DNA of 56,097 bases from NCBI GenBank assembly GCA_021778115.1, contig JAJYCS010000005.1, positions 1 to 56,097 of the forward strand, written 5' to 3'. Of this stretch, positions 11,205 to 53,702 are shown in pieces. The stretch's first letter is position 1. Every line of letters starts with the position of its first letter. A program made the position numbers and the translations under genes. The notes under the pieces were generated by a model. It ran no database searches, had not been told where the DNA came from, and saw only the letters and a list, made by a program, of their open reading frames with translations. The stretch is from Deltaproteobacteria bacterium. GTDB lineage: Bacteria > Desulfobacterota > Desulfuromonadia > Geobacterales > Pseudopelobacteraceae.

Positions 11205-11232
11205 GCCGTCTGTGACCCTCGCGTATCAACAC

Positions 11233-11262
11233 AAAAGGGCTGCCGAAACCGGCAGCCCTTTT
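11233..11262. terminator. Bidirectional rho-independent terminator
   Basis: A perfect 13-base stem (AAAAGGGCTGCCG, loop AAAC, then its complement ending in TTTT) lies between the convergent zinc-ribbon and FKBP genes. A/T tracts on both sides allow it to work in both directions. Confidence 0.9.
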
Positions 11263-11297
11263 GTTACGTGTCGCACCTCACCGAGAAAGACCGTTTC

Positions 11298-32217: not shown

Positions 32218-33414
32218 ATGATCCATTACCCCCGAACGCAGCTGGCCGAAGAATTGGTAGTCGCTCTGCAGGGCAAGGCGGTTTTCAGCGATGCCCACAA
32301 TGGCTTGTTTTTGGCGGCGCCCCGACGGACCGGCAAATCGACCTTCCTGCAGGCCGACCTAATGCCGGCGCTGGAGCGGGCCGGCGTAGTGGTGGTCTAT
32401 GCGGATCTCTGGGCTGATCAGCGCCGCGACCCTGGAGCCTTGATTGCTGAAGTCATCGGACGGGCCCTGCAACCTCATTTGGGGGTCATTGCCAAGGCCG
32501 CCAAAAAGGCTGGGCTGGAAAAAATCAGCCTTGCAGGTTGGTTGCAGATTGATACCAGCAGAATCGGCAAGCTCGATGGTGTGCCGCTGGTTGAGGCGTT
32601 GCGGGCACTCAGCGAAACCGCCGACGCACCGATCGCGCTGATCATAGATGAAGCCCAGCACGCCCTGACCAGCGAAGCCGGTGAAAATGCCATGGCGGCG
32701 CTCAAATCGGCACGTGACCAGTTGAACCGTCCTGGTGCAATCAAGCTGATGCTGGTGATGTCCGGTTCGGATCGCGACAAGCTGTTGCGTCTGGTCAACA
32801 CGACTGGCGCACCGTTTTATGGTTCTCAAATTCAGCGCATGCCGGAATTGGGTCAGGATTTCATCGCCCATATCGGGGGGCTGATCGAGTCCCAGAGACC
32901 AGAGCTCAAGCCGGTAGACAATGCCGCGCTTTTCGAGGCGTTTCAAGGTTTTGGCTACCGCCCCCAATTTTTCATGGAAGCCCTCGGGTTGGTGTTAAGC
33001 CCTCTCTCCGGCATTGGCGGGCGTTTCGAGCAGGCGATGCTGGTGGCCGCGCAACAACGGCAACGTGACGACGAGGCGCAAATGGAATCAGATTATCTGG
33101 GCCTGAAACCTCTGGAGAGAGCGGTGCTTTGGCGCATGCTGGAACAGGGGCCGCGTTTCAGGCCCTATGATGCCGAGGCCCTCAAGTTCTATCGAGAACA
33201 AACGAGGACCTCGGTTAGTGCCCAAAAAGCGCAAAATGCCCTGGAATCGTTGCGCCAGCACGTTCCGGCGCTGGTCTGGAAATCGGCTCGGGGTGAATAT
33301 GCGGTCGACGATGCCGCAATGCACCGTTGGTATGAGAAACGCTTGAACGAAGGAAGTTGGCCACCTGCAGATTCACAGATCGACCTTGATTTTGAAGGGC
33401 AACAGTCCCCATGA
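32218..33414 (+). CDS. P-loop ATPase with C-terminal winged-helix-like region, embedded in the hsd locus
   Basis: A 398-residue AAA/STAND-like ATPase of unknown function. Walker A is unusual: residues 34-42 read APRRTGKST, with alanine where the first glycine is normal. Walker B is LIIDEAQ with Asp144-Glu145, and a sensor-like VMSGSDRD follows. The rest is helical, and residues about 300-385 look like a winged helix (LKPLERAVLWRMLEQG). It has no nuclease, protease or membrane motif that I can see. Its codon use is less GC-rich than hsdM or hsdR. It has its own AT-rich promoter region and ends four bases inside hsdR. Genes inserted in type I loci are often called R-linked ORFs; I do not recognise this one. 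It might regulate or load the restriction complex or be a separate defence gene. Confidence 0.75.
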   Translation: MIHYPRTQLAEELVVALQGKAVFSDAHNGLFLAAPRRTGKSTFLQADLMPALERAGVVVVYADLWADQRRDPGALIAEVIGRALQPHLGVIAKAAKKAGLEKISLAGWLQIDTSRIGKLDGVPLVEALRALSETADAPIALIIDEAQHALTSEAGENAMAALKSARDQLNRPGAIKLMLVMSGSDRDKLLRLVNTTGAPFYGSQIQRMPELGQDFIAHIGGLIESQRPELKPVDNAALFEAFQGFGYRPQFFMEALGLVLSPLSGIGGRFEQAMLVAAQQRQRDDEAQMESDYLGLKPLERAVLWRMLEQGPRFRPYDAEALKFYREQTRTSVSAQKAQNALESLRQHVPALVWKSARGEYAVDDAAMHRWYEKRLNEGSWPPADSQIDLDFEGQQSP

Positions 33415-36400
33415 CCACCGTCGGCCAGATCGAGCGCGCCACCCAGAATCGGGTGGTGAGGCTGTTCCGTGAGCAGTTGGGCTACGACTACCTGGGCAAC
33501 TGGGAAGAGCGGCCCGACAACCGCTGCGTGGAAGAGAAGCTGCTGCGCGGCGCTTTGCACCTGCACGGCTACGCCAACGACCTGATCACCCGTGCCATCC
33601 ACGAACTGCAGAAGGCAGCCGGCGACCAGGGCAGAAAGCTGTACGACCGCAACAAGGCGGTCTATGAGCTGCTGCGCTACGGGGTGAAGGTAAAGCCGGA
33701 GGTGGGCGAGAACACCGTTACGGTCTGGCTGATCGACTGGACTGACCCACTGAACAACGACTTTGCTCTGGCCGAGGAGGTGACCGTTAAGGGTGCCGAT
33801 GCCAAGGCCAGCACCAAGCGGCCTGACATCGTGCTGTATATCAACGGCATCGCCCTTGGGGTGCTGGAACTGAAACGCTCTACGGTCTCGGTCTCCCAGG
33901 GTATCCGCCAGAACCTGGATAACCAGCAGAAGCAGTTCATCGAACCGTTCTTCAGCACCATGCAGTTGGTGATGGCCGGCAACGACAGCGAAGGGCTGCG
34001 CTACGCTACCATTGCGACCCCGGAAAAGTATTACCTGACCTGGAAAGAGGAGAGCCCCGTCGAGAACCCGCTGGACCGTGGCCTGTTGCAGCTCTGCAGC
34101 AAAGAGCGGCTGCTGGAGCTGATCCACGACTTTGTGGTCTTTGACAGCGGCACCAAAAAGCTCTGCCGCCACAACCAGTATTTCGGTGTGCGGGCTGCCC
34201 AGGAGTATCTCAAGCGCCGCGAGGGCGGCATCATCTGGCACACCCAGGGGTCGGGCAAGTCCTTGACCATGGTCTGGCTGGCCAAGTGGATTCGCGAGAA
34301 CCTCACCGACAGCCGGGTGCTGATTATCACCGACCGCACCGAGCTGGACGGGCAGATCGAGACCGTCTTTATGGGGGTGCATGAGGCGATCTACCGCACC
34401 GCCAGCGGGGCCGACCTGATCGCCACCCTCAACGCCACGGCCCCCTGGCTGGTCTGCTCCCTGATCCACAAGTTCGGCAGCAAGGAAAACGACGACATCA
34501 ACGCCTATCTGAACGAGCTGCAAAGCGCCCTGCCACCCGACTTCAGGGCCAAGGGCGATCTGTACGTGTTTGTGGACGAGTGCCACCGCACCCAGTCAGG
34601 CGAGCTGCACAAGGCGATGAAGGCGATCCTGCCCAATGCCCTGTTCATCGGCTTTACCGGCACCCCGCTACTCAAGGCCGACAAGCAGAAGAGCATCGAG
34701 GTCTTTGGCCGCTACATTCACACCTACAAGTTTGACGAGGCGGTGCATGACAAGGTGGTGCTGGACCTGCGCTACGAGGCGCGGGACATCGACCAGAGCG
34801 TGAAATCCCAGAAAAAGATCGACGAGTGGTTCGAGGCCAAGACCAAGGGGCTGACCGATCTGGCCAAGGCCCAGCTCAAGGCCCGCTGGGGCACGCTACA
34901 GAAGGTGCTCTCCTGCAAAGAGCGCCTGGAGATGATCGTCAACGACATCCTGATCGACATGAACACCAAGCCGCGCCTGATGGATGGCCGGGGCAACGCC
35001 CTGCTGGTGTCGGGCAGCATCTACGAGGCCTGCAAGTTCTACGAGCTGTTCGCCAGGACCGAGCTGAAAGGCGCCTGCGCCATTGTCACCAGCTACAAGC
35101 CCCAGGTCAGCGACATCAAGGGGGAGACCAGCGGTGACGGCGAGACCGACAACCTGCGCAAGTACGACATCTACCGCGCCATGCTGGCCGACTGGTTCAA
35201 CGAGGCGCCGGAGACGGCGGTCAACAAGGTGGAGCTGTTCGAGGAGCAGGTCAAGAAGGTCTTTATCGAGGAGCCGGGCCGCATGCGGCTGCTGATTGTG
35301 GTGGACAAGCTGCTGACCGGCTTTGATGCTCCATCGGCCACCTATCTGTACATCGACAAACAGATGCGTGACCATGGCCTGTTCCAGGCCATCTGCCGGG
35401 TGAACCGGCTGGACGGCGATGACAAGGAATACGGCTACATCGTCGACTACAAGGACCTGTTCAAGAGCCTGGAAGGGGCGGTGCAGGACTATACCTCCGG
35501 CGCCCTGGACGGCTTTGACAAGGAGGATGTGGCCGGGCTGCTGGAGGACCGTCTGCAGAAGGCTAAGGAAGATCTGGAGGAGGCGCGGGAATCGATCAAG
35601 GCGCTCTGTGAACCGGTGGAGCCGCCCAGGGACACGTTGGCCTACCTGCGCTTCTTCTGCGCCGTTGAATCCGGCAATGCCGAACAGTTGAAGGAGAACG
35701 AACCCAAGCGGCTGGCCCTGTACAAGCTGACCGCCAGCCTGCTGCGGGCCTTTGCCGACCTCTCCGCTGAGCTGGCCGAGGCCGGCTACAGCGCCACGGA
35801 GATCGAGACCATCAAGGCAGAGGTGGATCATTTTGAGAAGGTGCGCAATGAGGTGAAACTGGCCAGTGGTGACTACATCGACCTGAAGATGTACGAGCCG
35901 GCCATGCGTTACCTGATCGACACCTACATCCGGGCCGAGGAGAGCGAGAAGGTCTCGGCCTTTGATGATCTTTCCCTGGTCAATCTGATCGTTGAGCGGG
36001 GCGAGGACGCTGTCGAGGCGTTGCCCAGGTCGATCCGCAGGAGCCAGCAGGCCACGGCCGAGACCATCGAGAATAACGTCCGCAAGCTGATCATCGACGA
36101 GCACCCGATCAACCCCCGCTACTACGACGAGATGTCGGCCCTGTTGCAGGCCCTAATCGAGCAGCGTCGCCAGGAGGCCATCAGCTATCAGGAGTATCTG
36201 CAGCAAGTGGTGGCGCTGACCCGCACGATCAAGCAACCCGCCAGTGCAAGCTATCCGTCCAGCCTGCATACGCGGGCCAGACGGGCGCTCTACGATAACC
36301 TGGACAAGGACGAGCTGCTGGCCGTGGCGGTGGACAACGCGGTGCGGGAAAGCATGCAGGATGGTTGGCGTGACAACAGCATCAAGGTGAAAAAGGTCAG

Positions 36401-36488
36401 GAACGCGGTTAAGGCCGTGTTGCAGCAGGATGAGGAACGTACCGAGCGGATCGTGGAACTGGTGAAACATCAACATGAATACCAGTAG
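33411..36488 (+). CDS. hsdR: Type I restriction endonuclease subunit
   Basis: A 1025-residue HsdR that translocates and cuts unmethylated DNA. The N-terminal PD-(D/E)XK nuclease motif is RPDIVLYINGIALGVLELK at about residues 139-157. The helicase core follows with Walker A in TQGSGKS near residue 279 and the DEAD-like VDECHRTQ near 388. Motif-like GFTGTP and LTGFDAP are also present. The C-terminal 300 residues are helical and probably bind the methyltransferase. It overlaps the ATPase gene by four bases and the YgjP-like gene by 14 bases, so the restriction subunit is translated together with both. Confidence 0.95.
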   Translation: MTTVGQIERATQNRVVRLFREQLGYDYLGNWEERPDNRCVEEKLLRGALHLHGYANDLITRAIHELQKAAGDQGRKLYDRNKAVYELLRYGVKVKPEVGENTVTVWLIDWTDPLNNDFALAEEVTVKGADAKASTKRPDIVLYINGIALGVLELKRSTVSVSQGIRQNLDNQQKQFIEPFFSTMQLVMAGNDSEGLRYATIATPEKYYLTWKEESPVENPLDRGLLQLCSKERLLELIHDFVVFDSGTKKLCRHNQYFGVRAAQEYLKRREGGIIWHTQGSGKSLTMVWLAKWIRENLTDSRVLIITDRTELDGQIETVFMGVHEAIYRTASGADLIATLNATAPWLVCSLIHKFGSKENDDINAYLNELQSALPPDFRAKGDLYVFVDECHRTQSGELHKAMKAILPNALFIGFTGTPLLKADKQKSIEVFGRYIHTYKFDEAVHDKVVLDLRYEARDIDQSVKSQKKIDEWFEAKTKGLTDLAKAQLKARWGTLQKVLSCKERLEMIVNDILIDMNTKPRLMDGRGNALLVSGSIYEACKFYELFARTELKGACAIVTSYKPQVSDIKGETSGDGETDNLRKYDIYRAMLADWFNEAPETAVNKVELFEEQVKKVFIEEPGRMRLLIVVDKLLTGFDAPSATYLYIDKQMRDHGLFQAICRVNRLDGDDKEYGYIVDYKDLFKSLEGAVQDYTSGALDGFDKEDVAGLLEDRLQKAKEDLEEARESIKALCEPVEPPRDTLAYLRFFCAVESGNAEQLKENEPKRLALYKLTASLLRAFADLSAELAEAGYSATEIETIKAEVDHFEKVRNEVKLASGDYIDLKMYEPAMRYLIDTYIRAEESEKVSAFDDLSLVNLIVERGEDAVEALPRSIRRSQQATAETIENNVRKLIIDEHPINPRYYDEMSALLQALIEQRRQEAISYQEYLQQVVALTRTIKQPASASYPSSLHTRARRALYDNLDKDELLAVAVDNAVRESMQDGWRDNSIKVKKVRNAVKAVLQQDEERTERIVELVKHQHEYQ

Positions 36489-37203
36489 CCATAAACAGCT
36501 TGAGGTGAGCGGCATTGCGGTTGAGGTGCACCGCAAGCCGATCAAGAACCTGCATATCGGTGTCTATCCGCCTGATGGCAGGGTGCGGGTCTCAGCCCCC
36601 AAACGGATGAACTATGAGGCAATCCGGCTGGCAGTGATCGGCAAGCTAGGCTGGATCAGAAAGCACCAGCAGAGGTTTGCCAGCCAGGAGCGGCAATCGC
36701 CCCGCGAGTATGTGACCGGCGAGACCCACTACTACCAGGGGCGCCGCCATCGCCTGGACATCCTGCTACACAGCGGCCGACCATCGGTAATGCTACACCA
36801 CGGCACCCTTGAACTACAGGTGGCGCCGGACAGTAGCGTGGAACAGCGCGAACAGCTGCTCTACCGCTGGTATCGCCGTCAACTGAAGCAACAGATCCCG
36901 GAGCTGCTGGCCAAGTGGGAGCAGGTGATCAGCGTGCAGACTGCCGAATGGGGCGTAAAAAGGATGAAGACCCGCTGGGGCACCTGCAACCCCACAGCTC
37001 GCCGTATCTGGCTTAACCTGGAGCTGGTGAAGAAGCCGGTAGCGTGCCTGGAATACATCATCGTACATGAGCTGGTGCATCTGCTGGAGCGGCTGCACAA
37101 CGATCGCTTCACCGCTCTTATGGATCAGTTCATGCCGCTCTGGCGGCAGTATCGCGAGGAGTTGAACCGGGCGCCGCTGGGGCATGGCGCGTGGAAGGAG
37201 TAA
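36475..37203 (+). CDS. YgjP-like (DUF45) metal-dependent hydrolase
   Basis: A 242-residue protein of the YgjP/DUF45 family. The zinc motif is HELVH (His198, Glu199, His202) with His208 six residues on (LERLHNDRF), similar to SprT-like metalloproteases. The WGTCN and WLNLELVKKP segments preceding it match the family. Members are often encoded next to hsdR, but their job in restriction is not settled. It overlaps hsdR by 14 bases. Its TAA stop at 37201-37203 touches the AAGGAG that serves ubiX, so the island ends with no spare bases. Confidence 0.88.
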   Translation: MNTSSHKQLEVSGIAVEVHRKPIKNLHIGVYPPDGRVRVSAPKRMNYEAIRLAVIGKLGWIRKHQQRFASQERQSPREYVTGETHYYQGRRHRLDILLHSGRPSVMLHHGTLELQVAPDSSVEQREQLLYRWYRRQLKQQIPELLAKWEQVISVQTAEWGVKRMKTRWGTCNPTARRIWLNLELVKKPVACLEYIIVHELVHLLERLHNDRFTALMDQFMPLWRQYREELNRAPLGHGAWKE

Positions 37204-40596: not shown

Positions 40597-42009
40597 CTAC
40601 CTGTTGAAACAGCGTGAGAACAGATCGAGCAGCGGTGATGGCCAGGCCCCGAGAACGATGATAAGGACCGCGAGGCACCCTAACGCGATCCGCTCGACGG
40701 GGGCGAGGAGAGGCTGCTGCCGAGCGGCTACGGGGGAGAAGTATAGGGAGGCGACGATCCGCAGGTAGTAGTACAGCGAGAGGGCGGTGGCGAGTATCCC
40801 CATGACGGCCAGGGGCAGCTCTCCGGCCCGGATCGCGGCCGTGAAGATCAGCCACTTGCCGGTGAACCCGGCAGTGGGGGGGATGCCGACCAGGGCAAAG
40901 AGCGCCAGGGTGAGGACAGCAGCGGGGAAGGCGTGCGTCGAGCCGACCCCGCGGTACGACTCCACCGTGGCGCCGCACCCGGTGCGCTCCAGGACGGCAA
41001 TGGCGCCGAAGGCGGCGAGACTGATGATACCGTAGGCAACGGCATAATAGGCGGCGGCCTGGTACCCGCCTGCTGCTCCGGCGACCAGCGCCACGGCGAC
41101 GTATCCCATATGGGCGATGGAAGAGTAGGCCAGCAGGCGCCGGACCCGGTTTTCGCGCAGGGCGGCCAGGTTGCCGGTCAGCATGGAGAGGAGCGCCAGC
41201 CACCAGAGCGGCAGGCGCAACAGTCCGGCATCACCGGCAGCAGGCAACAACCGCAGCAGAAACAGCACCGCCGCACCTTTCGAACCTCCCGACAAGAAGC
41301 CCGCCACCGGCGCCGGCGCCCCCTCATAGACATCAGGTGTCCAGAGATGGGCCGGGACCAGCGACAGCTTGAAGGCGATGCCGATCAGCATGAAGCTCCA
41401 GCCCGCCATGGCGAGCGAGGAACCCGCTCCGGGCAGCAGCGTTGCCTGAACCGCCTGACCGATGACCAACGTGCCGCAGAAACAGTAGATCAGGGCGATG
41501 CCGAAGACCATACATGCGGCGCTGAAGGCCCCGATCAGCAGGTATTTCAGCCCCGTCTCGACGGAACCGGCATGGCCCAGGTCCGATCCCACCAGGATAT
41601 ACAGGCCGAAGGTCATGGCTTCGAGGCCCAGAAACAGGGACAGCAGCGTTGTTGCCGAGGCCAGCGCCGTCATGCCGAAGGTGGTGAAGAGTATCGTGGC
41701 AGGATATTCCTCGCCGCGCAGGCCCCGTTCGCTGTTATACGTGCGGGAAAGGGCCAGCACCGTCGCTGCCATGAGACAGAAAAATACCGTAAAGAGACGG
41801 GCTAACCCGTCGGAAGCAAGCCCGACGGTCGATGCCGCCGCAGGCGACGGCGCAATCAGCGCCCAGAGCGCCGCCCCCAGTGTCGCCGGATATGCCACCA
41901 GATAACTGGCCCGTTCAGTGCGGGTGATCCCACCGCTGAGCAGGGCCAGCAGGGCGCCTCCCGCCAGCAGCAGGAGCGGCAGGACTATCCGGAGGTCGCT
42001 GGCGGTCAT
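40597..42009 (-). CDS. nuoN: NADH-quinone oxidoreductase subunit N
   Basis: A 470-residue antiporter-like membrane subunit of complex I. The multi-helix pattern and motifs such as LGLEAMTFGLYIL, ETGLKYLLIGAFSAA and LVPAHLWTPDVYEGAP are typical of NuoN. Charged residues in the membrane that form the proton path (Glu in LEAM, Lys in GLKYL, Lys in FKLSLVPAHLW) are kept. It follows nuoK directly with a four-base overlap, where nuoL and nuoM would normally lie. It is the last gene of the operon. Confidence 0.95.
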   Translation of the reverse strand: MTASDLRIVLPLLLLAGGALLALLSGGITRTERASYLVAYPATLGAALWALIAPSPAAASTVGLASDGLARLFTVFFCLMAATVLALSRTYNSERGLRGEEYPATILFTTFGMTALASATTLLSLFLGLEAMTFGLYILVGSDLGHAGSVETGLKYLLIGAFSAACMVFGIALIYCFCGTLVIGQAVQATLLPGAGSSLAMAGWSFMLIGIAFKLSLVPAHLWTPDVYEGAPAPVAGFLSGGSKGAAVLFLLRLLPAAGDAGLLRLPLWWLALLSMLTGNLAALRENRVRRLLAYSSIAHMGYVAVALVAGAAGGYQAAAYYAVAYGIISLAAFGAIAVLERTGCGATVESYRGVGSTHAFPAAVLTLALFALVGIPPTAGFTGKWLIFTAAIRAGELPLAVMGILATALSLYYYLRIVASLYFSPVAARQQPLLAPVERIALGCLAVLIIVLGAWPSPLLDLFSRCFNR

Positions 42010-42365
42010 GCCTCAGGCCCCTCCTCCAGAGGGCCCGCGGACGGTTCCGGTGCACCCGGCCGGCTGCCCGTGGTCAGCGCGTCCACGTTTACCGTATCCC
42101 TCTTCCGGTGCAGGTGGACCACCAAGGCCAGTGCCAGGGAGACCTCGGCCGAGGTCATGGCCATAATCATCAGCGCGAACACCTGGCCGTCGGCAGTTCC
42201 CCAGTGCCGTGCCCCTCCCACAAAGACCAGCATGGCGGCATTAAGCATGATCTCGATGCCGATCAGCAGCATGATGACGTTCGATCGCCAGACCAGGACG
42301 CAGAGCACCCCCAGGGCAAAGAGGATGCCTGCCAGGATCAGGACATGGGTCAACGGAACGATCAT
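42006..42365 (-). CDS. nuoK: NADH-quinone oxidoreductase subunit K
   Basis: A 119-residue membrane subunit with three helices and the conserved glutamates in IGIEIMLNAAML and MTSAEVSLALALV. The start at 42365 follows a GGAGGGGG. The usual C-terminal RKRDTVNVD is present, but 20 residues follow it (TTGSRPGAPEPSAGPLEEG and so on) that I do not recognise from NuoK. The unusual tail coincides with the position where nuoL and nuoM are missing, so it may be a scar of that loss. Confidence 0.93.
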   Translation of the reverse strand: MIVPLTHVLILAGILFALGVLCVLVWRSNVIMLLIGIEIMLNAAMLVFVGGARHWGTADGQVFALMIMAMTSAEVSLALALVVHLHRKRDTVNVDALTTGSRPGAPEPSAGPLEEGPEA

Positions 42366-42853
42366 GGCCCCCTCCGTTTGCCGAAGTAGAGGGCGCCAAC
42401 CACGGCGAAGAGCAACTGCAGGGAGATGATCTCGATGGCTACCCCGTGCTGCCTGAACAGGGTCAGGCTGAAGTCGCGCAGGGTCGCCGCAGCCCCGGCG
42501 CCAGGCGCCGGCCATCCTCCGTGCGCCAGCATCATCCCCAGCAGCGCCAGGATGACCCCGGCCAGGAGCATGGCCGGTAACCACTGCCGCAGGCCGGGAC
42601 GGAGCCCATCACCCGACCGGCCGACGTCGAGCATCATGATGACGAACATGAACAGCACCATGACGGCACCGGCATAGATGATCACCTCGAACATGGCGAT
42701 GAGCGGCGCGGCCAGCAGGAAGAAGATGGCCGCCAGGCTGAAGAACGAGCTTACGAGGTAGACGATGGCATGCACCGGGTGCTTCTCGGTAATGGCCAGG
42801 ACCGTGCCGATGACGGTGACCGCCGCCAGTAGGTAGAACAGGTACGCTTCCAT
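42362..42853 (-). CDS. nuoJ: NADH-quinone oxidoreductase subunit J
   Basis: A 163-residue membrane subunit of complex I with five predicted helices. The conserved helix FEVIIYAGAVMVLFMFVIMML, with the pi-bulge seen in NuoJ, is clear. The start at 42853 aligns with the family; an earlier in-frame ATG would add eight residues overlapping nuoI. It overlaps nuoK by four bases. Confidence 0.94.
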   Translation of the reverse strand: MEAYLFYLLAAVTVIGTVLAITEKHPVHAIVYLVSSFFSLAAIFFLLAAPLIAMFEVIIYAGAVMVLFMFVIMMLDVGRSGDGLRPGLRQWLPAMLLAGVILALLGMMLAHGGWPAPGAGAAATLRDFSLTLFRQHGVAIEIISLQLLFAVVGALYFGKRRGP

Positions 42854-42854
42854 A

Positions 42855-43385
42855 TCAGGGCAACAACCCCCGTACATCCACCGGCGGCTTCTCCTTTGGT
42901 CCGGCTCCCCGCGGCTGGGTCACGCCGATGCCGGCATGACGGTAAAAGTTGTAATCGTGCGATTTGCCGCAGCCATCGATCAGCAGATCCTCCTTTTCGT
43001 AGAGCAGCTCCATGATATCCCGCTTACAGATCTCGAAATCAGGTGTCATCTGTATGGCCAGGGTTGGACAGGCCTCGGCGCAGAGGCCACAGAAGATGCA
43101 GCGTGAAAAGTTGATTCGGAACCATGCGGCGTAGCGTCTGCCATCCGCAGCTTCCGCCGACTGCATGGAGATGCAGTCCACCGGGCAGGCCGCCGAACAG
43201 AGCTGGCAGGCGACGCAGCGCTCGCCGCCATCCGGGTCGCGGGTCAACACGATGCGGGCCCGGTAGCGCGGGTAGGGGGTACGCTTCTCCTCCGGGTACT
43301 GGATGGTCACCGGCCTCCGGAAGATATGCTGCCAGGTGATCCACATCCCGGTCAAAAGGGCGGTCATGTCAGATACAATTTTCAC
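42855..43385 (-). CDS. nuoI: NADH-quinone oxidoreductase subunit I
   Basis: A 176-residue ferredoxin-like subunit carrying two [4Fe-4S] clusters (N6a and N6b). The motifs are [12 protein letters not shown] and [12 protein letters not shown]. It begins with GTG, preceded by GAGG five bases upstream; an in-frame ATG lies six codons later. It starts one base after the nuoH stop. Confidence 0.95.
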
Positions 43386-43386
43386 G

Positions 43387-44379
43387 TCAGCCTCTCAACA
43401 CCAGCCACCAGGCGGTCACCAGAATGTTAAGCAGCGCCAGCGGCGTCAGGATCTTCCAGCCGAAATGCATCAGTTGATCGTAACGAAGGCGTGGCAGGGT
43501 GCCGCGTATCCAGATGAACAGGAAGGCAAAGGCCAGCACCTTGACGGAAAAACAGACCACCGGCGGCAGGAGCGGCCCGTGCCAGCCGCCCAGGAAAAAG
43601 GTGGCTGCCAGCCCCCCCAGCGCGATGATGTTGAGGTACTCCCCCACGAAGAACAGGCCGAAGCGCATGCCGGAGTATTCAGTGTGGAAGCCGGCCACCA
43701 GTTCCCCCTCGGCCTCGGGAAGGTCAAAGGGGATTCGTTTGCACTCGGCGGCGATGCTGATCAGGAAGATCATGAAGGCCAGCGGTTGATAGACGATGAA
43801 CCAGCATCCAGCCTGGGCGGCAACGATATCGGACAGACGGAAGGAACGGGCCAGCATCACCACCGGCACCAGCGACAGCCCCATGGAAAGTTCGTAGGAG
43901 AGCAGCTGGGCAAGGCCACGGATGCTTCCCAGCAGGGCATATTTGGAGTTTGAAGCCCATCCCCCCAGGGCGACACCGTAGACGGCGAGGGAGGAGAGCG
44001 CCACGAACAGGAGCAGCCCCACATGCAGGTCGGCCACCTGCAGCTGCACCGTATGGCCGAACAGCCTGAGCGGCGCGCCAAAGGGGATGACGGCAAAGAT
44101 CATGATGGCGGGAATGGCTGCCATGGCCGGTGCCAGATAAAACAGCCATTTGTCCGCCCCGATCGGACGGAAATCCTCCTTGGTCAGGAGTTTGATCAAG
44201 TCGGCCAGCGGTTGCAGCAGTCCGAAGGGGCCAACGCGGTTGGGCCCCTTGCGGTCCTGAATCCAGGCCAGCACCTTCCGCTCGGCAAAGACCAGATAGG
44301 CCGCCAGGGTCAGGATGACGAAGAATACCAGGGCGATCTTGGCCAGCATCAGTGCTATGTCGAGCGGGTCATAGATCAT
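43387..44379 (-). CDS. nuoH: NADH-quinone oxidoreductase subunit H
   Basis: A 330-residue membrane subunit that links the hydrophilic arm to the proton-pumping arm at the quinone site. It has about eight helices and the conserved loops [18 protein letters not shown] and [19 protein letters not shown]. It overlaps the end of nuoG by 11 bases. Confidence 0.96.
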
Positions 44380-46261
44380 GGGTCATGACCCCTTCGCTCT
44401 CTGCCTCAAGCTCCCGCAGGCGTTTCCATCTTTCGGAAAACGGTTCCGCAATCCGTTCGCCGCTCAGTCCTGCGATGATCAGCGCCACTATCTGCCAGGC
44501 CGGTTGAGGGTCGCCGCCTGGCGGGGTGCTGCGATGGATGTGGGGCGGATGAACGGCAGGGCCGAGGCCCCTGAGCGGCAGCCCCGGGTGCATGACCTTT
44601 TTGAAACGCTGGGCCCGTCCTTCGTGGTTGATGGCGGTGCCGTCCATCTCCACCCAGGCGGTGGTGGGGAGGAATACCTGCGCCGTCCGAACGGCTTCCG
44701 TCAGACGCCAGTCCAGCGCGGCTACAAACGGAATCCCCGCCAGCAGCTGCGGTGGAATATCGGCCTCTACGGAGATGATCCCCTTGATCGTGCCGGATGC
44801 GACGGCGCGTTCAAGGCTGATAGCGCCCTGTGCCATGGCCAGTTGCGCTGCACCAAAGCTGTTGGCCTCTGGAAACAGAACGGCCAGTTTCAGGTGGGTC
44901 TGCTGTTTCAGGGTTGCTGCCAGCAGGTCCGGCCTGTTGGCTGCAGAACAGATCAATACCGGTTGCTTGGCATCTGCCAGCGGCACCGCATCCAGTGAGG
45001 CAACCGTCGTGAAGGTGCAGGGGAGGTCGATGCCATCGCCGATGACATACACCACCCCCCCGTTTCTCCACGCCTGCCGCACCGCAAGGGCCAGCATCGG
45101 CGCCTCCTGCAGAGGATCGCAGCCGCAGATGACGATGCAGTCCGACTTTCTGACGTCCTGCTGCGAAGCCGACCTTTCGGCTGACAGCAGCCCCGTGAGG
45201 AAAAGCGTCGTGTCGCTCTCCTCTTGGGAGGTGAAGTAGCAGAGCGCCCCGGCGGAACAGCACTGTGCCAGCAGCGGCAGCAGCAGGGCGCCTTCGAGTG
45301 CCAGCCGTGGTGAGCCGACTATGGCGATGCTGCCGGTGCCGTACTGCTCTTCGATCTGGGCGATGCGCAGCAGCAGGGCGTCCAGCGCCTCGTCCCGGCT
45401 TGACTCCCTGTTGTCAACCAGCGGGGTGCGCGGGCGCTGCGGGTCGTTTACCTCGTTGTTGGCAAAGCGTCCCCGGTCGCAGATGAACCAGCCGTTCACC
45501 GCTTTGTTTTGACGGGCCGTGGTCTTGAGCAGTTCCCGATAGCGTGCCACCGGTGTCGTGTTGCAGCCCAACGAACAGCCCTGGCAGACCGAGGGGGCCA
45601 TCTCATAGTCCCAGTAGCGGGCTCGAAAACGGGCGGTTTTGTCGGTGAAAACCCCGGTAGGACAGAGGTCAACCAAGTTGCCGGAAAAGGGCGATTCCAG
45701 TTGGCCGTCCTGAAAACGTCCGAAATAGACCTTCCCGGCGCTCCCCATGACGCCGAAATCCGTGCCGCCGGCGTACTCCTGATAGAAGCGGACGCAGCGG
45801 TAGCACTGGATGCAGCGGTTCATTTCGTGCGCGATAAAGGGGCCGAGGTCCTGGTTGACGTGGGTGCGCTTGCTGCCGGTATAGCGCCGGATACCATGCC
45901 CGCCGGCAATGGTGAACTCCTGGAGCTGGCATTCGCCCCCCGCATCGCAGACCGGGCAGTCGTGGGGGTGGTTGATCATCAGCCATTCGATGACGTGGCG
46001 CCGCATGGCAACCGCCTCGGGATCAGTGGTTGACACCACCATGCCGTCCTGGGCAGGCAGCATGCAGGACATCTGGATCCCCTTGACCGGGCCGTCCACC
46101 AGCTTGACGGCGCAGACCCGGCAGGCACCGGCCTTGCCCAGCGCCGGGTGCCAACAGAAATGCGGGATCGGAATGTCCACGGATTGCGCTGCTTCCAGCA
46201 CCGTGGTCCCGTCGGCGACCTCCACCGATATGCTGTCGATAATCAGTTTCGGCATGGACAT
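44369..46261 (-). CDS. nuoG: NADH-quinone oxidoreductase subunit G, short form
   Basis: A 630-residue NuoG. The N-terminal [2Fe-2S] motif (HFCWHPALGKAGACRVC, SCMLP), the His/Cys cluster ligands (HDCPVCDAGGECQL), CIQCYRCVRF, and the molybdopterin-type [4Fe-4S] motif VCQGCSLGCN are all present. The C-terminal molybdopterin-like domain is short; Escherichia coli NuoG has about 900 residues. Short forms are known in some lineages, so I do not call it truncated. The start may be the first or the third codon. It overlaps nuoF by 19 bases. Confidence 0.95.
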   Translation of the reverse strand: MSMPKLIIDSISVEVADGTTVLEAAQSVDIPIPHFCWHPALGKAGACRVCAVKLVDGPVKGIQMSCMLPAQDGMVVSTTDPEAVAMRRHVIEWLMINHPHDCPVCDAGGECQLQEFTIAGGHGIRRYTGSKRTHVNQDLGPFIAHEMNRCIQCYRCVRFYQEYAGGTDFGVMGSAGKVYFGRFQDGQLESPFSGNLVDLCPTGVFTDKTARFRARYWDYEMAPSVCQGCSLGCNTTPVARYRELLKTTARQNKAVNGWFICDRGRFANNEVNDPQRPRTPLVDNRESSRDEALDALLLRIAQIEEQYGTGSIAIVGSPRLALEGALLLPLLAQCCSAGALCYFTSQEESDTTLFLTGLLSAERSASQQDVRKSDCIVICGCDPLQEAPMLALAVRQAWRNGGVVYVIGDGIDLPCTFTTVASLDAVPLADAKQPVLICSAANRPDLLAATLKQQTHLKLAVLFPEANSFGAAQLAMAQGAISLERAVASGTIKGIISVEADIPPQLLAGIPFVAALDWRLTEAVRTAQVFLPTTAWVEMDGTAINHEGRAQRFKKVMHPGLPLRGLGPAVHPPHIHRSTPPGGDPQPAWQIVALIIAGLSGERIAEPFSERWKRLRELEAESEGVMTHDL

Positions 46262-47508
46262 TTTCCGGTGCTGATATGTGCTCGCACCTCATCTTCAAAG
46301 TGCCTGAGCAGGCCGTCCACCGGACCCATGGCACCGGGTGCCAGGGCGCAGAAGGCGTTATTCAGATACGTGACATGGTCCCGCAGGATTGTGATCTGTT
46401 CTTCGCTCCCCTGGCCAGCCTCAATCTGTTCCAGTAGGTGAACCACGAACGGGAGTCCTTCGCGGCAGGGGGTGCACCAGCCGCAGGATTCACGGGCGTA
46501 AAACGTTACCAGATTGAGGGTGGCCGCCACCATGCAGGTCTGCTGGTCGAAGACCACGATGCCGCCGGTGCCGAGGCGCGATCCAGCCTTGGCCACCGGA
46601 TCGAAGTCCATCGGCACGCCCCACTGCTCCTTGGTGAAATACGGTGTGGAAGCGCCGCCCGGCAGGCAGGCCTTGAAGCTGCTCCCCGGCCGCATGCCGC
46701 CGCAGGGCCCGTCGATGATCTCTCCCAGCGTCATCCCCAGCGGCAGCTCGAAACAGCCCGGGTTGGCCACATGGCCGCTGATGCAGAACAGCTTCATGCC
46801 GGCTGCCTCGGGGGTGGCGGCGGTTGCCTTGAACCACTGGGGGCCGTGGGCAATGATGTAGGGTATGTTGGCCAGGCTCTCCACGTTGTTGACGACGGTT
46901 GGCCCACCCCATAACCCCTTGATGGCCGGGAATGGCGGCTTGGCCCGCGGGTTGGCCCGCTTTCCCTCCAGGGCGTTCATCAAGGCGGTTTCCTCGCCGC
47001 AGATGTAGCGCCCGGCAGAGAGATGCAGATCGATGTCGCAGGAAAAGCCGCTCCCCAGGATGTTCTCGCCCAGCAGCCCCGCTGCCGTTGCCTCGGCAAT
47101 GGCCCGGCGCAGATTGGCGGCGGCCTGTTCGTAGCCGCGCCGGATGAAGATGAAAGCGTGGCGCACGCCGATGGCGTAGCAGGCCAGCACTATCCCCTCG
47201 ACAAGTGAGTAGGGATTGGCTTCAAGCAGGATGCGATCCTTGTAGGTGCCCGGTTCCATCTCATCGCAGTTGCAGATGAGCCAGCGCGGCCCGGTCAGGT
47301 TCCGCGGCACAAACGACCACTTCTTCCCGGTGGGAAAGCCGGCGCCGCCGCGTCCGCGCAGGCCGGAGTCAATCACCACCTGCTGCACCTCATCGGGCGA
47401 CATGCTGGACAGCCCCTTTTTTAGCGCAGCAAAACCTCCCTCGGCCTGGTATTCGGCAAAGGTAACGCAGCGGCCGGGGCGGTTATGGCGAAACAGGATC
47501 TGTTCCAT
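46243..47508 (-). CDS. nuoF: NADH-quinone oxidoreductase subunit F
   Basis: A 421-residue subunit that binds NADH and FMN. The NADH loop GLRGRGGAGFPTGKKWSF, the FMN region CNCDEMEPGTYKDR, and the [4Fe-4S] motif SCGWCTPCREG with a later Cys in NNAFCALAPG are clear. AGAAGG precedes the ATG. Upstream, where nuoE should be directly adjacent, lies the accessory island of about 3 kb; expression of nuoF and the rest now depends on read-through or on a promoter inside the island. Confidence 0.96.
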   Translation of the reverse strand: MEQILFRHNRPGRCVTFAEYQAEGGFAALKKGLSSMSPDEVQQVVIDSGLRGRGGAGFPTGKKWSFVPRNLTGPRWLICNCDEMEPGTYKDRILLEANPYSLVEGIVLACYAIGVRHAFIFIRRGYEQAAANLRRAIAEATAAGLLGENILGSGFSCDIDLHLSAGRYICGEETALMNALEGKRANPRAKPPFPAIKGLWGGPTVVNNVESLANIPYIIAHGPQWFKATAATPEAAGMKLFCISGHVANPGCFELPLGMTLGEIIDGPCGGMRPGSSFKACLPGGASTPYFTKEQWGVPMDFDPVAKAGSRLGTGGIVVFDQQTCMVAATLNLVTFYARESCGWCTPCREGLPFVVHLLEQIEAGQGSEEQITILRDHVTYLNNAFCALAPGAMGPVDGLLRHFEDEVRAHISTGKCPCRN

Positions 47509-47520
47509 AAAAGCCTTCTA

Positions 47521-47548
47521 TGTGCCACAGAGGCACAGAGACACGGAG
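47521..47548. repeat. Fragment of the widespread CACAGAGGCACAGAGACACGG repeat
   Basis: The short sequence around GCCACAGAGGCACAGAGA and ACACGGAG, just upstream of nuoF, matches from memory a repeated sequence that is scattered through many bacterial genomes, often beside accessory genes. It marks the nuoF-side edge of the island. Only one copy is present here. Confidence 0.5.
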
Positions 47549-47649
47549 AAAGTCAAAAGCAGACGTTTTTACGATTTGTTGGACGCTTCTCTTTTTCATA
47601 CCGTGTTACTGCATTTGAAGTTGTTGGAATATTCCTGTCACCTTACCTG

Positions 47650-47678
47650 TTGACCGATACCAATAAATATTATAACTT
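47650..47678 (+). promoter_or_regulatory. Possible promoter of the parDE-like pair
   Basis: TTGACC at 47650-47655 is followed by TAACTT at 47673-47678 (17 bases) or the better-looking TATAAC at 47671-47676 (15 bases), in an AT-rich stretch about 35 bases before the antitoxin gene. Confidence 0.4.
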
Positions 47679-47710
47679 GATATTGTAACGGCATTGATGG
47701 AGGTCATCTC

Positions 47711-47953
47711 ATGCAAAAAAACACCAGTGTTTCCCTTGGTAAACACTACGAAAATTTTATTTCTCAGCAGGTTGTCCAAGGACGCTTTGGTTCAGCAAGC
47801 GAGACGATCCGTGCCGGTTTGCGACTCTTGGAAGAACGGGAAACCAAATTATCCCTGCTTCGCCGTGCACTCGTAGAGGGTGAAGAAAGCGGCACCTCTG
47901 ATTATTCACTTGAGACCTTACTTTCAGAACTTGACGGTGCAAGTTTAAACTGA
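47711..47953 (+). CDS. ParD-like ribbon-helix-helix antitoxin
   Basis: An 80-residue antitoxin of the ParD/CC2985 type. The N-terminal ribbon-helix-helix is NTSVSLGKHYENFISQQVVQG, followed by GSASETIRAGLRLLEERE. The C-terminal acidic part would bind the toxin. GGAGG precedes the ATG. Its stop overlaps the toxin ATG (TGATG). Antitoxins of this type usually repress their own promoter. The pair is on the strand opposite to the nuo genes. Confidence 0.9.
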   Translation: MQKNTSVSLGKHYENFISQQVVQGRFGSASETIRAGLRLLEERETKLSLLRRALVEGEESGTSDYSLETLLSELDGASLN

Positions 47954-48255
47954 TGCCTACTTTTACCCTCACTAGCATGGCAAAGGCGGATATGAAAGAA
48001 ATCGCCAAATTCACGCAAAACCGTTGGGGGCGTGAGCAGCGCAACTTGTATCTGCAAATGCTGGATGTTTCATTTCATCAGTTGGCTGCCAACCCACTCA
48101 AAGGAAAGGACTGCAGTGATATTCGAGTTGGCTACCGGAAATTGAATGCTGGCAGTCATGTAATCTTTTACCGCCGAACTCTCGCCGATACGATCGAGAT
48201 TGTCCGTGTTCTGCATGGACATATGGATATTGAAACCCGACTTTCTGAGTCGTAA
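47953..48255 (+). CDS. ParE/RelE-superfamily toxin
   Basis: A 100-residue toxin of the ParE type. The pattern FTLTSMAKADMKEIAKFTQNRW at the N-terminus, the central YRKLNAGSHVIFYR, and the C-terminal VRVLHGHMDIETRL are typical. Classic ParE toxins inhibit DNA gyrase; RelE relatives cut mRNA, and the sequence alone does not fully separate them, although the ParE fit is better. It is co-translated with the antitoxin. Confidence 0.9.
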   Translation: MPTFTLTSMAKADMKEIAKFTQNRWGREQRNLYLQMLDVSFHQLAANPLKGKDCSDIRVGYRKLNAGSHVIFYRRTLADTIEIVRVLHGHMDIETRLSES

Positions 48256-48318
48256 TACAGGAAGTATCCCTATTTAATTCGCCCAGTCTTTTCGGGCGGT
48301 CGGCGTCTATGGACCTGG

Positions 48319-49176
48319 TTATACCTTGATATTATCTACAACGTTTATTCCCAGCACATTCTTCACAGGAATCAACTCTGGTGGGAATGGTCCGCCAATA
48401 GCCAAAAATACTTTCACATTTTTGTTGTCATCTGAAACTGCAAGATATGCCTCAAGAAGTGCTTGGTATTTAACGCATTGAAACAAACCTCGAAGAATGT
48501 CTTCCTGAGAGGATATATGTGATTTAACCTCAACTCCAACCCACTCCTTGTCTGACCTGAACAAAATATCAACAGTGTCAGCAGAAGGGAGAAGGTATTC
48601 AGGTTTAGAGTCATAACCACTGTCAATGCCTATCAATGATGGGTTAGCCATTATCTGATTTTTCAATTTCTTGTGATGTTCACTCTCTCCGCCGTGCCCA
48701 TACTTTAACCCTGCTTTTTTAACCGCGTCTTTTATGATTGAGTTGTGAAGTGTCGGCTTAAGATCTAATGCCGCGAGAACCTCATCCCATTTATCGAATG
48801 CAAATATTTCAGATAAGACGCGATTGACGATTTCATTTTTCTGTTTTGTAGTAAGTTTTTTAAAGTCTGTTTTATCAATAAACCATCCAATACCTTCGCC
48901 AGGAAGCTCCGTGCCTTTGTTTACGACGATACATTGAATCTGAGGTATTTCGATTTTTAGCTTTTTACTGAGACTTTTCAGTGCATTTCCGATGGAACCG
49001 AGTGGATAATTCAAGTTTCTGGGGTTTGGGATGCCCACTTCTTCCGCCAAATTCGAGTAATATATTTTCTGGGCTGCCTTTGCTTGGCGAACAAGTATAG
49101 GAAGGACTTCTCTTGCCCTCTGCTGATATAGCTTCTCGCCACCAAGAAAATCATATGCTTTTCTTGCCGTTTCCAT
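48319..49176 (-). CDS. PD-(D/E)XK nuclease-like protein with N-terminal helical domain
   Basis: A 285-residue protein that I cannot assign to a named restriction family. The C-terminal part fits a PD-(D/E)XK nuclease: Glu165 in ESEHHKKLKNQI, Asp203 in SADTVDILF, and Glu216-x-Lys218 in GVEVKS. The N-terminal 100 residues contain a conserved-looking block (YYSNLAEEVGIPNPRNLNY, GSIGNALKSLS) ending in LPGEGIGWF, which I have seen in other uncharacterised bacterial proteins and which may bind DNA. AGGAGC precedes the ATG. No methyltransferase is nearby, so it would not be a simple type II enzyme. Base composition is clearly AT-richer than the nuo genes. Confidence 0.7.
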   Translation of the reverse strand: METARKAYDFLGGEKLYQQRAREVLPILVRQAKAAQKIYYSNLAEEVGIPNPRNLNYPLGSIGNALKSLSKKLKIEIPQIQCIVVNKGTELPGEGIGWFIDKTDFKKLTTKQKNEIVNRVLSEIFAFDKWDEVLAALDLKPTLHNSIIKDAVKKAGLKYGHGGESEHHKKLKNQIMANPSLIGIDSGYDSKPEYLLPSADTVDILFRSDKEWVGVEVKSHISSQEDILRGLFQCVKYQALLEAYLAVSDDNKNVKVFLAIGGPFPPELIPVKNVLGINVVDNIKV

Positions 49177-49209
49177 TCTTTGCTCCTATTGGTATAACTC
49201 ATTATTGAC

Positions 49210-49237
49210 CGGTTCACGCGCGCACGCCCGTGAACCG
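49210..49237. repeat. Perfect 9-base inverted repeat upstream of the nuclease gene
   Basis: CGGTTCACG (49210-49218) and CGTGAACCG (49229-49237) flank a 10-base GC-rich loop. It lies between the ATPase stop and the nuclease start on the minus strand, with no clear T run, so it could be a weak terminator or an operator. Confidence 0.55.
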
Positions 49238-49259
49238 ATGATCTTCCCAAATGGAACAG

Positions 49260-50432
49260 TTATTCCATGCTCCTGCTACCTGTAACCCCCAACAAAAAAT
49301 CCTCTACCGTATTTGCCGTGACATATCCGGTTACACTATCAGGATAGGCATCAATAAAGCTTTTGGGCAGTCGTGGTGTTCGGGTGGTTTTCCATGTGAA
49401 CTCCCAGGCAGAAAGCTGTCCATCGCGTTCTTCGATATAGTCAATTTCTTGTTGCGCGTGGGTACGCCAGAACCAGTAATTTGCCGGACGACCTGCATAG
49501 TGATTGGCCTTCAACCGTTCGGCCACCAGAAAATTTTCCCACAGTCCGCCGAGATCCTGGCGTAGATGCAATGGATTAAAGTTCTTGATGACGGCATTTC
49601 GTACGCCGGTATCCCAGAAATAGATCTTCCGGCTTTTTTTAAGCTCATTGCGTAGATTGCGGCTGAACGAGTTAAGCCGGAATACCACATAACATTTCTC
49701 CAGCAGATCTATATAGCGCTCAATGGTTTCCTTATCGGCTCCGACCAGTTGCCCCAGTTCATTGTATGACACTTCCGAGCCGATCTGCAGGGCAAGCGCT
49801 TGAACGATCCGCTCCAGCAGAGCGGGTTTTTTGGCGAGTCCCAAGCTGAATACATCCTTGTACAGGTAACTCTCGGCAAGCAGTGACAGCAACTCCCGCT
49901 CTTCGCCCGGTGATGTCACCACTTCGGGATAGTAGCCGTATACCAGCCGATGTTCCAGAAGCCGTTTTTCCTCAAGCAGACCATGATGTGCTACCATCTC
50001 GCCAAACGACAGTGGAAACAGATGATATTCGTATTTTCTGCCGGTTAGCGGTTCGCTTGTTGCTTCGGCAAGCTCAAAAGCCGATGATCCGGTGGCAATG
50101 ACCTGGGTTTCCGGAAGCATGTCCGCGCATAGCTTGAGTGCAATGCCGATGTTGTTGATGCGCTGGGCTTCATCAATAATCACCAGCCGCTTTGTGCCAA
50201 ACAATGCCTTCAAACGTGTGGAAGTGGTTTCGGAAAGCAGAACGCGGATGTCGGCCTCATCGCCACTCAGCCAGAGCGCGTCAAGCCCGGAATCTGCCGT
50301 AATAGTCCTGACCAGCGTAGTCTTGCCAGACTGACGTGGGCCAAATAACAAGACGATCTTGCCCTTGCCGATTCTTTCGTTTATCTGCTCTTTAATGCTA
50401 CGTTTGATTGCATTTAAAGTTTTCATACACAT
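49260..50432 (-). CDS. AAA ATPase of the DUF4143 type
   Basis: A 390-residue ATP-binding protein. Walker A is GPRQSGKTT (residues 31-39), Walker B is VIIDEAQ (Asp87, Glu88), and the sensor ATGSSAF follows. The C-terminal half (GYYPEVV, SYLYKDVF, FWDTGVRNAVIKNF, ENFLVAERLK, and YWFWRTHAQQEIDYI) is DUF4143. Such proteins are common in accessory regions of bacteria and archaea and have no firm function. The start is ATG 50432 or 50426; neither has a good ribosome binding site. It begins three bases after the nuoE stop, so it is probably translated from the nuo message. Confidence 0.88.
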   Translation of the reverse strand: MCMKTLNAIKRSIKEQINERIGKGKIVLLFGPRQSGKTTLVRTITADSGLDALWLSGDEADIRVLLSETTSTRLKALFGTKRLVIIDEAQRINNIGIALKLCADMLPETQVIATGSSAFELAEATSEPLTGRKYEYHLFPLSFGEMVAHHGLLEEKRLLEHRLVYGYYPEVVTSPGEERELLSLLAESYLYKDVFSLGLAKKPALLERIVQALALQIGSEVSYNELGQLVGADKETIERYIDLLEKCYVVFRLNSFSRNLRNELKKSRKIYFWDTGVRNAVIKNFNPLHLRQDLGGLWENFLVAERLKANHYAGRPANYWFWRTHAQQEIDYIEERDGQLSAWEFTWKTTRTPRLPKSFIDAYPDSVTGYVTANTVEDFLLGVTGSRSME

Positions 50433-50435
50433 ATT

Positions 50436-50948
50436 TTATATTAAATTTTCGGTTGTAACCACTAAATTTATCAATGCTGTACTCTGGCGAAGTTCAGCAA
50501 GGAAGGCTGCCACACTCTCGGCAGTTACTTTTCCATGGATCCTGTCCCCGATCATGAGGGTCGGCGCCTGCCCGCAGTTGCCGAGGCAGCAGCAGGGGAG
50601 CAGGGTGAACAGACCGTCGGCCGTCGTTTCGCCCGGCCGGATGCCGAGCAACTCCGCCACGCAGTCCATCAGGCTCGCCCCCCCCATGGCCCAGCAGGAG
50701 ATGGAATCGCAGACATGGATGACCTGTTGTCCCACCGGACGGCGGTAGATCATCTCGTAAAAGGTCGCCAGTTCCTCCACCTGCAGCGGCGAGAGTCCCA
50801 ACAGTCCGGCCGCCTCGAGCACCGCTTCGTCGCTCAACCAGCCATAGTGCGCCTGGAGCGCCTTCATCACATCCACCGCAGCCTCGCGGTTGGTGATGGC
50901 CGAGGCGATGCGGCGCTGGAGTTCATGTTTGAGTTCACTCGGGATCAT
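50436..50948 (-). CDS. nuoE: NADH-quinone oxidoreductase subunit E, with altered C-terminus
   Basis: A 170-residue [2Fe-2S] subunit of the NADH-oxidising arm. Ligands are Cys in CDSISC and in CCLGNC. The body matches NuoE well (HYGWLSDEAVLEAAGLLGLSPLQVEELATFYEMI). The last 15 or so residues (STALINLVVTTENLI) are encoded by AT-rich DNA and do not look like NuoE, so the island probably replaced the original 3' end. The core fold should be intact. It is five bases from the stop of the nuoBCD gene. Confidence 0.93.
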   Translation of the reverse strand: MIPSELKHELQRRIASAITNREAAVDVMKALQAHYGWLSDEAVLEAAGLLGLSPLQVEELATFYEMIYRRPVGQQVIHVCDSISCWAMGGASLMDCVAELLGIRPGETTADGLFTLLPCCCLGNCGQAPTLMIGDRIHGKVTAESVAAFLAELRQSTALINLVVTTENLI

Positions 50949-53329: not shown

Positions 53330-53702
53330 GGCGCCTCCGCGTCCGGGCAGGCCCCCAGTCAAGCCCACCCTTGAGCCACAACCAGACCAATCCCAGCAGC
53401 AACGTCACGATGAAGAAGGTGATGTGCAGCAGACCCGACATGCCGAGCTGATCCCAGACCGGGGCCCAGGTGAAGATGAAGGCGCTCTCCACGTCAAAGA
53501 CGATGAAGAAGATGGCGATGAGGTAGAAGGGGATGATAAGGGCACGACGGGCACTGCCGGAGGGGATTACGCCAGATTCGTAGGGGAGTTCCTTGTTGCG
53601 GTTGGTCGTCTTTGCGCCCAGCCACCACGCAGCCAGCAGCAGGCTGCCGATAATCACGACGGCAACGACGGCGTATATGATAACGGGAAACGTTTCCGAC
53701 AA
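53316..53702 (-). CDS. nuoA: NADH-quinone oxidoreductase subunit A
   Basis: A 128-residue membrane subunit with three helices and the conserved cytoplasmic loop [13 protein letters not shown] that contacts the quinone site (the usual Cys position is Val here). The [13 protein letters not shown] helix is also typical. It is the first gene of the operon. I do not see a confident minus-strand promoter in the 240 bases in front of it. Confidence 0.95.

Follow-up and report, generated by a model that had tools for sequence, protein, structure and literature searches.

The window analyzed here, a stretch of 56,097 nucleotides, is one whole contig (G000:C100) of a Deltaproteobacteria bacterium of the family Pseudopelobacteraceae (assembly G000; 2.29 Mb in 107 contigs, estimated 99.26% complete). 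On its minus strand we found an operon for complex I, a major proton pump of energy metabolism, with the order nuoA, nuoBCD (fused), nuoE, an island of other genes, nuoF, nuoG, nuoH, nuoI, nuoJ, nuoK, and nuoN, in which all ten nuo reading frames are open. The genes upstream of the island are nuoA (53316–53702, start codon uncertain), which encodes NADH-quinone oxidoreductase chain 3 (Pfam PF00507, E 4e-28), nuoBCD (50954–53368), which carries subunits B, C, and D in a single gene (NCBIfam NF009808, 1505.7 bits; cut-off 1156), and nuoE (50436–50948; NF005722, E 1.5e-60). The island is followed by nuoF for the FMN/NADH subunit (46243–47508; NF010120, 409.6 bits, cut-off 389; below the cut-off of TIGR01959, E 2e-164), nuoG (44369–46261; TIGR01973, 493 bits, cut-off 470), nuoH (43387–44379; NF004741, 358.5 bits, cut-off 305), and nuoI (42855–43385; NF004536, 291 bits, cut-off 212), the last with two 4Fe-4S motifs. 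Identification of nuoJ (42362–42853) is based on a match below the cut-off of NF005164 (E 3.6e-27) and on alignment, while nuoK (42006–42365) passes NF004320 (80.4 bits, cut-off 57) and has its best score, below the cut-off of 101, against NF004319 (93.5 bits); its C-terminal tail is longer than in the compared operons with the order K-L-M-N. The final gene is nuoN (40597–42009; TIGR01770, 342 bits, cut-off 332.6), and beyond it lies a convergent gene that we take from its domains to be radA-like.

By gene content, the NADH module is present (NuoE, NuoF, and NuoG by NCBIfam, with no loss among the conserved Cys columns of these three and of NuoI), as are the quinone module of B, C, D, H, and I (NF009808, NuoH, and NuoI models, all above cut-off) and the E-channel subunits A, J, and K (NuoJ below model cut-offs; NuoK with the motifs IGIEIMLN and SAEVSLA). 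The fused nuoBCD above its cut-off and the order A-BCD-E-F-G-H-I-J-K are those of the Geobacter-type NuoBCD complex I, with the island interrupting this order between nuoE and nuoF.

The membrane arm is shortened. The preliminary description had nuoK directly followed by nuoN with a four-base overlap, and we found the same, the nuoK stop and nuoN start sharing an ATGA at 42006–42009 (minus strand), the site of nuoL and nuoM in relatives. Its claim that two of the three antiporter-like subunits are missing was also borne out, as a search of the window with PF00361 (the antiporter-like domain) matched nuoN alone; where respiratory complex I (NDH-1) has L, M, and N, this operon has only NuoN. A group 4 hydrogenase type complex (FHL, Ech) is excluded by NuoE, NuoF, and NuoG in the operon, with no hydrogenase module replacing the NADH module, and an Mrp-type antiporter (a MrpA/D set without redox subunits) by the redox subunits and by TIGR01770 as the best match of NuoN.

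The island (47510–50435) has a G+C content of 0.458, compared with about 0.60–0.66 in the nuo genes. It contains an AAA_14/DUF4143 gene, a gene for a 285-residue protein without a Pfam match, and two small plus-strand genes that presumably resemble a ParD/ParE pair. The nuoE at its border has a tail longer than those of the compared relatives (170 residues vs 157–163). Among nine relatives' operons fetched with both nuoE and nuoF, none has a comparable island, the gaps being up to a few hundred bases. This A+T-richer insertion may harm expression by cutting nuoF–nuoN off from the upstream promoter. Elsewhere in the window are genes for a type I restriction enzyme R subunit (33411–36488; HSDR_N, SWI2_SNF2) and, after it, a YgjP-like metallopeptidase (36475–37203).

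Distribution of the K-N order and of other nuoL and nuoM genes

The same K-N operon was found in a second genome of the family, the MAG STB_15 (G034; locus L097), where nuoK (9740–10096) and nuoN (10093–11496) have the same four-base overlap and no L or M matched downstream of N in the fetched stretch. There is no island between nuoE and nuoF in this genome. An assembly accident is unlikely because G034 has the same operon, the same overlap, and the same absence of L and M, and given the identical junction we rejected an assembly gap between nuoK and nuoN.

A fused NuoBCD scored above the cut-off in 40 of 76 family genomes, including that of the window; among the 15 genomes of the window's genus in this set, it did so in G000 only (0 of 14 others). 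We fetched the surroundings of 40 relatives' NuoBCD genes (39 above the cut-off plus that of G030, which is below it; G009 and G030 are partial). Nine of these loci continue with E and other nuo genes, and in 31 the fetched stretch holds A-BCD or BCD alone; several contigs among the 31 end within a few kb, and separation of the operon parts is not certain in all of them. NuoBCD and NuoM/NuoN of one genome (G057) lie 84–86 kb apart on one contig. The neighbor of K could be read in 17 operons (16 relatives and the window): it is L in 15 and N in two, the window and L097. With L after K in 15 of the 17, the K-N order is rare and appears beyond chance.

Counts based on NuoN gave a similar picture. 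We picked by eye 45 places of second-type (non-nuo-1, about 278–373 bits) NuoN in the 76 family genomes, and 40 of them have NuoM inside 4.5 kb. Besides the two K-N genomes, the exceptions are G019, with a solitary NuoN, G030, whose contig starts with NuoN, and G007, where the contig edge leaves a fragment of NuoM. For first-type NuoN, the only rows counted in a class sample of 117 genomes (second-type rows were left out), NuoM lies inside 4.5 kb in 106 of 107, and the remaining one starts at a contig end. The two K-N NuoN were also used to search the order (141 genomes) and the class (277 genomes), and no further K-N operon appeared among the best-scoring places: NuoM lies upstream in 28 of the 30 highest places for which loci were given, and next to the 947 and 935 bits of the K-N proteins, from which the model was built, the best score was 721 bits. 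Two solitary nuoN genes were set aside as further K-N cases since no nuoK adjoins them. One of these, in G019 (L107, 3807–5210), sits directly behind a radical-SAM-like gene (by eye), with no other nuo match in the fetched 9 kb; the other, nuoN-like, is on a contig of a Cytophagaceae MAG (L029, 3227–4693), with no other nuo match on the stretch examined.

The operon shares its fused BCD and the gene order of its relatives, A-BCD-E-F-G-H-I-J-K, with the second complex I found in Geobacter, known in G. sulfurreducens as the "12-subunit" NADH dehydrogenase. According to the available part of one study, this 12-subunit enzyme, which we infer to be the NuoBCD enzyme, is conserved in every one of six Geobacter genomes apart from G. 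lovleyi (PMC2825233). The scarcity of NuoBCD in the window's genus would agree with a speculative assignment of that genus to the one of G. lovleyi. In the Geobacter-type relatives, nuoL comes after K, with nuoM and nuoN where the stretch reaches; among them only L097 differs.

The preliminary description had called for a genome-wide search for other nuoL or nuoM genes and a second nuo operon, and this search found a complete one, nuo-1, together with a hydrogenase-4-like cluster. PF00361 matched seven places in G000: the window nuoN, nuo-1 L, M, and N, and three genes in the cluster on contig C65. The nuo-1 operon is split over two contigs: C19 ends with NuoL, and C28 begins with NuoM and NuoN. 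Upstream on C19 are genes for A, B, C, D, E, F, G, H, I, and K (Pfam), as well as an open frame at the place of J, named by its place only. Over 142 bases, the end of C19 is identical to the start of C28 except for a single difference; this overlap and the remaining genes upstream indicate a complete ordinary operon cut by the assembly. G034 also has a complete nuo-1 (L110). In each of the two genomes, one NuoL and one NuoM score above the curated cut-offs, both in nuo-1, and the other NuoL matches of G034 all fall under the NuoL cut-off. Since nuo-1 thus holds the only above-cut-off NuoL and NuoM of both genomes, borrowing by the K-N complex is possible. Relocation of L and M as a separate nuoLM operon was rejected, as none turned up in G000 (PF00361) and G034 has a single NuoL above the cut-off. 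The preliminary description would have been contradicted by relatives with the same gene order and such a nuoLM operon; the sole relative found with this order, G034, has a complete nuo-1 instead. In the C65 cluster (G000:C65:60000–79000), one of the three antiporter-like genes is encoded on the other strand and stands behind a small gene that looks helix-turn-helix-like (named by eye).

Ancestry of the K-N end and constraint on NuoN

Different parts of the window operon gave different ancestries. The NuoN protein tree joins the window and L097 in a single branch (96/91), set beside ten K-L-M-N NuoN, and forcing the window protein into the group of L091, L079, and L103 is rejected (p-AU 4e-43). 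The nuoN codons pair the same two genes at positions 1+2 (100/99) and at third positions (95/96), with the L079-group placement rejected for the latter (p 0.0079). By comparison, the tree of BCD+E+F+G+H+I puts the window inside the group of L091, L079, and L103, which have K-L-M-N operons (100/99), and rejects its pairing with L097 (p-AU 0.0085), and third positions of BCD, F, G, H, and I place it with L079 (100/99; L097 pairing rejected, p 0.0019). The nuoA tree pairs the window weakly with L097 (68/63); placement in the L079 group is rejected (p 0.019) but placement in a wider group is kept (p 0.18), and the J+K trees fit both ancestries (p-AU 0.12 and 0.32). The similarity of the window operon to L079 drops from within nuoJ onward, but the trees of J and K give no exact recombination point. 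The operon looks like a mosaic, with the K-N end of one lineage on the peripheral arm of another, and acquisition of this end by recombination somewhere in nuoJ–nuoK would be the simplest account.

Some comparisons fit this account less easily. Among five nuoN genes compared with that of the window, L079 shows the lowest uncorrected synonymous difference (0.57) and L097 the highest (0.68); we weighted the nuoN trees above these raw values, without certainty, because third-position base composition is uneven. The end branches of A, J, K, and N are long in both the window and L097. An acceleration after the loss was rejected as the cause, since the outgroup distances of N, J, and K lie within the K-L-M-N range (A had no outgroup), and for the same reason the long branches look more like an old split than a burst. 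A common origin of the two nuoK tails was likewise rejected, as their protein alignment is no better than shuffles (850 of 5,000 reach it). The DNA alignment of the tails beats all 3,000 simple shuffles and is given little weight because the compared stretch includes the ATGA.

We compared the two K-N NuoN proteins with 56 rows, namely, 33 second-type K-L-M-N rows from 29 genomes and 23 nuo-1 rows. Residues E130, K214, K244, and K385 (window numbering), which align with E. coli E133, K217, K247, and K395, are unchanged in both K-N proteins and in every one of the 56 rows. Changes of E. coli K247 or K395 lower activity to below one fifth and E133A is harmless, according to the accessible text of PMC13073174. 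At residue 286, both K-N proteins have Glu, while Gln is found in 33/33 K-L-M-N and 23/23 nuo-1 rows; the Gln of this motif is also present in nuo-1 NuoL and NuoM and in two of the three hydrogenase subunits (no motif was found in the third). From topology, we infer that this residue lies on the cytoplasmic side, along which the NuoL lateral helix runs, in the loop that follows helix 9. It is the sole site that is invariant across the 29 genomes yet changed in both K-N NuoN; such a double change of at least one otherwise invariant site occurs in 23 of 406 K-L-M-N pairs, and we therefore regard Glu 286 as a hint only. The K-N pair also shares six residues absent from all 29 genomes, a number that 4 of the 406 pairs reach (at least six), close relatives such as L146/L147 and L089/L143 among them. 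These shared residues fit common descent. At 81 sites diagnostic of nuo-1 versus family K-L-M-N NuoN, which are not limited to the NuoM-facing surface, the K-N proteins are nuo-1-like at five and two.

Signs of constraint are found along the operon. With synonymous sites close to saturated, the dN/dS ratio between the two nuoN genes is 0.15, and that of all ten genes ranges from 0.06 to 0.20. The window retains every one of 62 conserved Cys columns in BCD, E, F, G, and I, and L097 retains 60. The predicted structure of the window NuoN (470 residues; mean pLDDT 80) matched E. coli NuoN in a fold search that covered this protein alone (Z about 45, rmsd about 2.5 over about 455 residues), and the modeled chain ends without a lateral-helix extension.

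A possible half-pump and the alternatives

From the quinone end, the membrane arm of complex I consists of H, A/J/K, N, M, and L. The loss of L and M takes exactly the distal end of this arm and thus leaves the quinone and E-channel part complete with one antiporter-like unit. We propose that the operon may encode a complete NADH- and quinone-reacting complex I with a heritable arm that ends at NuoN and has about half the proton yield; judged from the genes, we put the probability of this reading at slightly under one half (about 0.47). The arm would comprise H, A, J, K, and a single antiporter-like subunit; NuoM and NuoL, the latter with its lateral helix, would be missing, and the product would assemble without them. 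Like the Yarrowia complex lacking ND4 and ND5, it would move about 2 rather than 4 H+ per 2 electrons. Menaquinone has a potential of about -75 mV, below that of ubiquinone, and NADH one of -320 mV. With this quinone, a proton motive force too high for a 4 H+ pump could still permit one that moves 2 H+ per 2 electrons, and the lower yield might allow NADH oxidation with menaquinone at high proton motive force or make reverse electron transfer cheaper. A caveat is that the nuo-1 enzyme of the same cell, with its three subunits, would have to face the same quinone.

Comparable complexes exist. In the sections available of two studies, the yield of E. coli complex I without NuoL and of Yarrowia complex I lacking ND4 and ND5 is about 1 H+/e- rather than 2 (PMC9271201, PMC7447434). 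Counting against a half-pump, quinone reductase activity is practically lost with a truncated NuoL, as stated in the available part of PMC3274701. The Yarrowia nb8m deletion and the plant complex I* likewise lack the distal pumping module and keep the ND2/NuoN side (PMC7447434, PMC9271201, same sections), but the former is a mutant and the latter an assembly intermediate, whereas here the operon itself is without L or M. As here, one antiporter-like subunit stands beside a NuoH homolog in formate hydrogenlyase and related group 4 hydrogenases (PMC9474812, text as available); in contrast, those enzymes have a hydrogenase module, and their E. coli subunit bears a lateral helix, where this operon has NuoE, NuoF, NuoG, and a NuoN predicted to lack the extension. 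A 2025 survey of about 11,000 species distinguishes complex I variants that are complete, lack EF/EFG, or are incomplete, and the portion of it available names no variant without L and M (PMC12361115). We found no report of a K-N operon in the open-licence literature searched; within that literature, the backbone is the known second, NuoBCD-type complex I of Geobacter and the shortened K-N variant is new.

The main competing explanation is completion in trans, in which NuoL and NuoM from nuo-1 join the K-N complex as a shared distal module and give an ordinary three-antiporter enzyme. The complete nuo-1 in both genomes speaks for it, as does a cyanobacterium whose NuoL/NuoM versions in use reportedly differ between ambient and low CO2 (PMC8235220, in its available part). 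We consider it rather unlikely, since the family relatives with both operons retain L and M in the second one, nuo-1 and the family second type share only about 46–51% identity in NuoM and 37–44% in NuoL, and, as a milder point, the K-N NuoN rarely have nuo-1-like residues at the diagnostic sites. The least likely explanation in our judgment is a decaying relic, an operon that lost L and M, was split by the island, and makes no working pump. It draws on the position of the island, the altered nuoE end, and the confinement of above-cut-off NuoBCD to one of the 15 genus genomes; it is opposed by the ten open frames, the Cys columns kept, and the low dN/dS. Moreover, G034 shares the form without an island and at about 64% NuoN identity, and the K-N form therefore seems long-lasting. 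We keep the relic explanation mainly for the window genome because the island could separate nuoF–nuoN from the upstream promoter.

A further alternative concerns history and not function: nuoL and nuoM may have been lost twice independently, with the likeness of the two NuoN arising by convergence or long-branch attraction. The separate placement of the two operons by their peripheral genes, the synonymous differences of nuoN, and the long end branches in both operons are in line with this scenario. It is nonetheless improbable given that protein data and nuoN third positions both reject the L079 group, the latter pairing the window with L097, and that the N, J, and K outgroup distances are unexceptional.

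The preliminary description had left the choice between L and M encoded elsewhere and a smaller pump. L and M are indeed present in nuo-1, with no separate nuoLM operon, and the evidence leans to the smaller pump because two species share the K-N form and their nuoN genes pair on trees, look constrained, and rarely resemble nuo-1 NuoN. The wider proposal is more tentative: an inherited natural half-pump with NuoN alone and no lateral helix, a K-N end that spread by recombination into a second backbone, and a Gln-to-Glu change that could be an adaptation to the free distal face. The K-N form is known from two genomes only.

How proton pumping is shared among NuoL, NuoM, and NuoN is still debated, and complexes without distal subunits may be distorted by the deletion, as noted in the available sections of PMC9271201. 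An operon kept without L and M offers a ready-made test. The H+/e- ratio of the K-N complex would tell if the proximal part pumps alone and if the distal subunit is the only proton exit. If the half-pump reading is true, bacteria can tune their energy yield through the loss of pump subunits.
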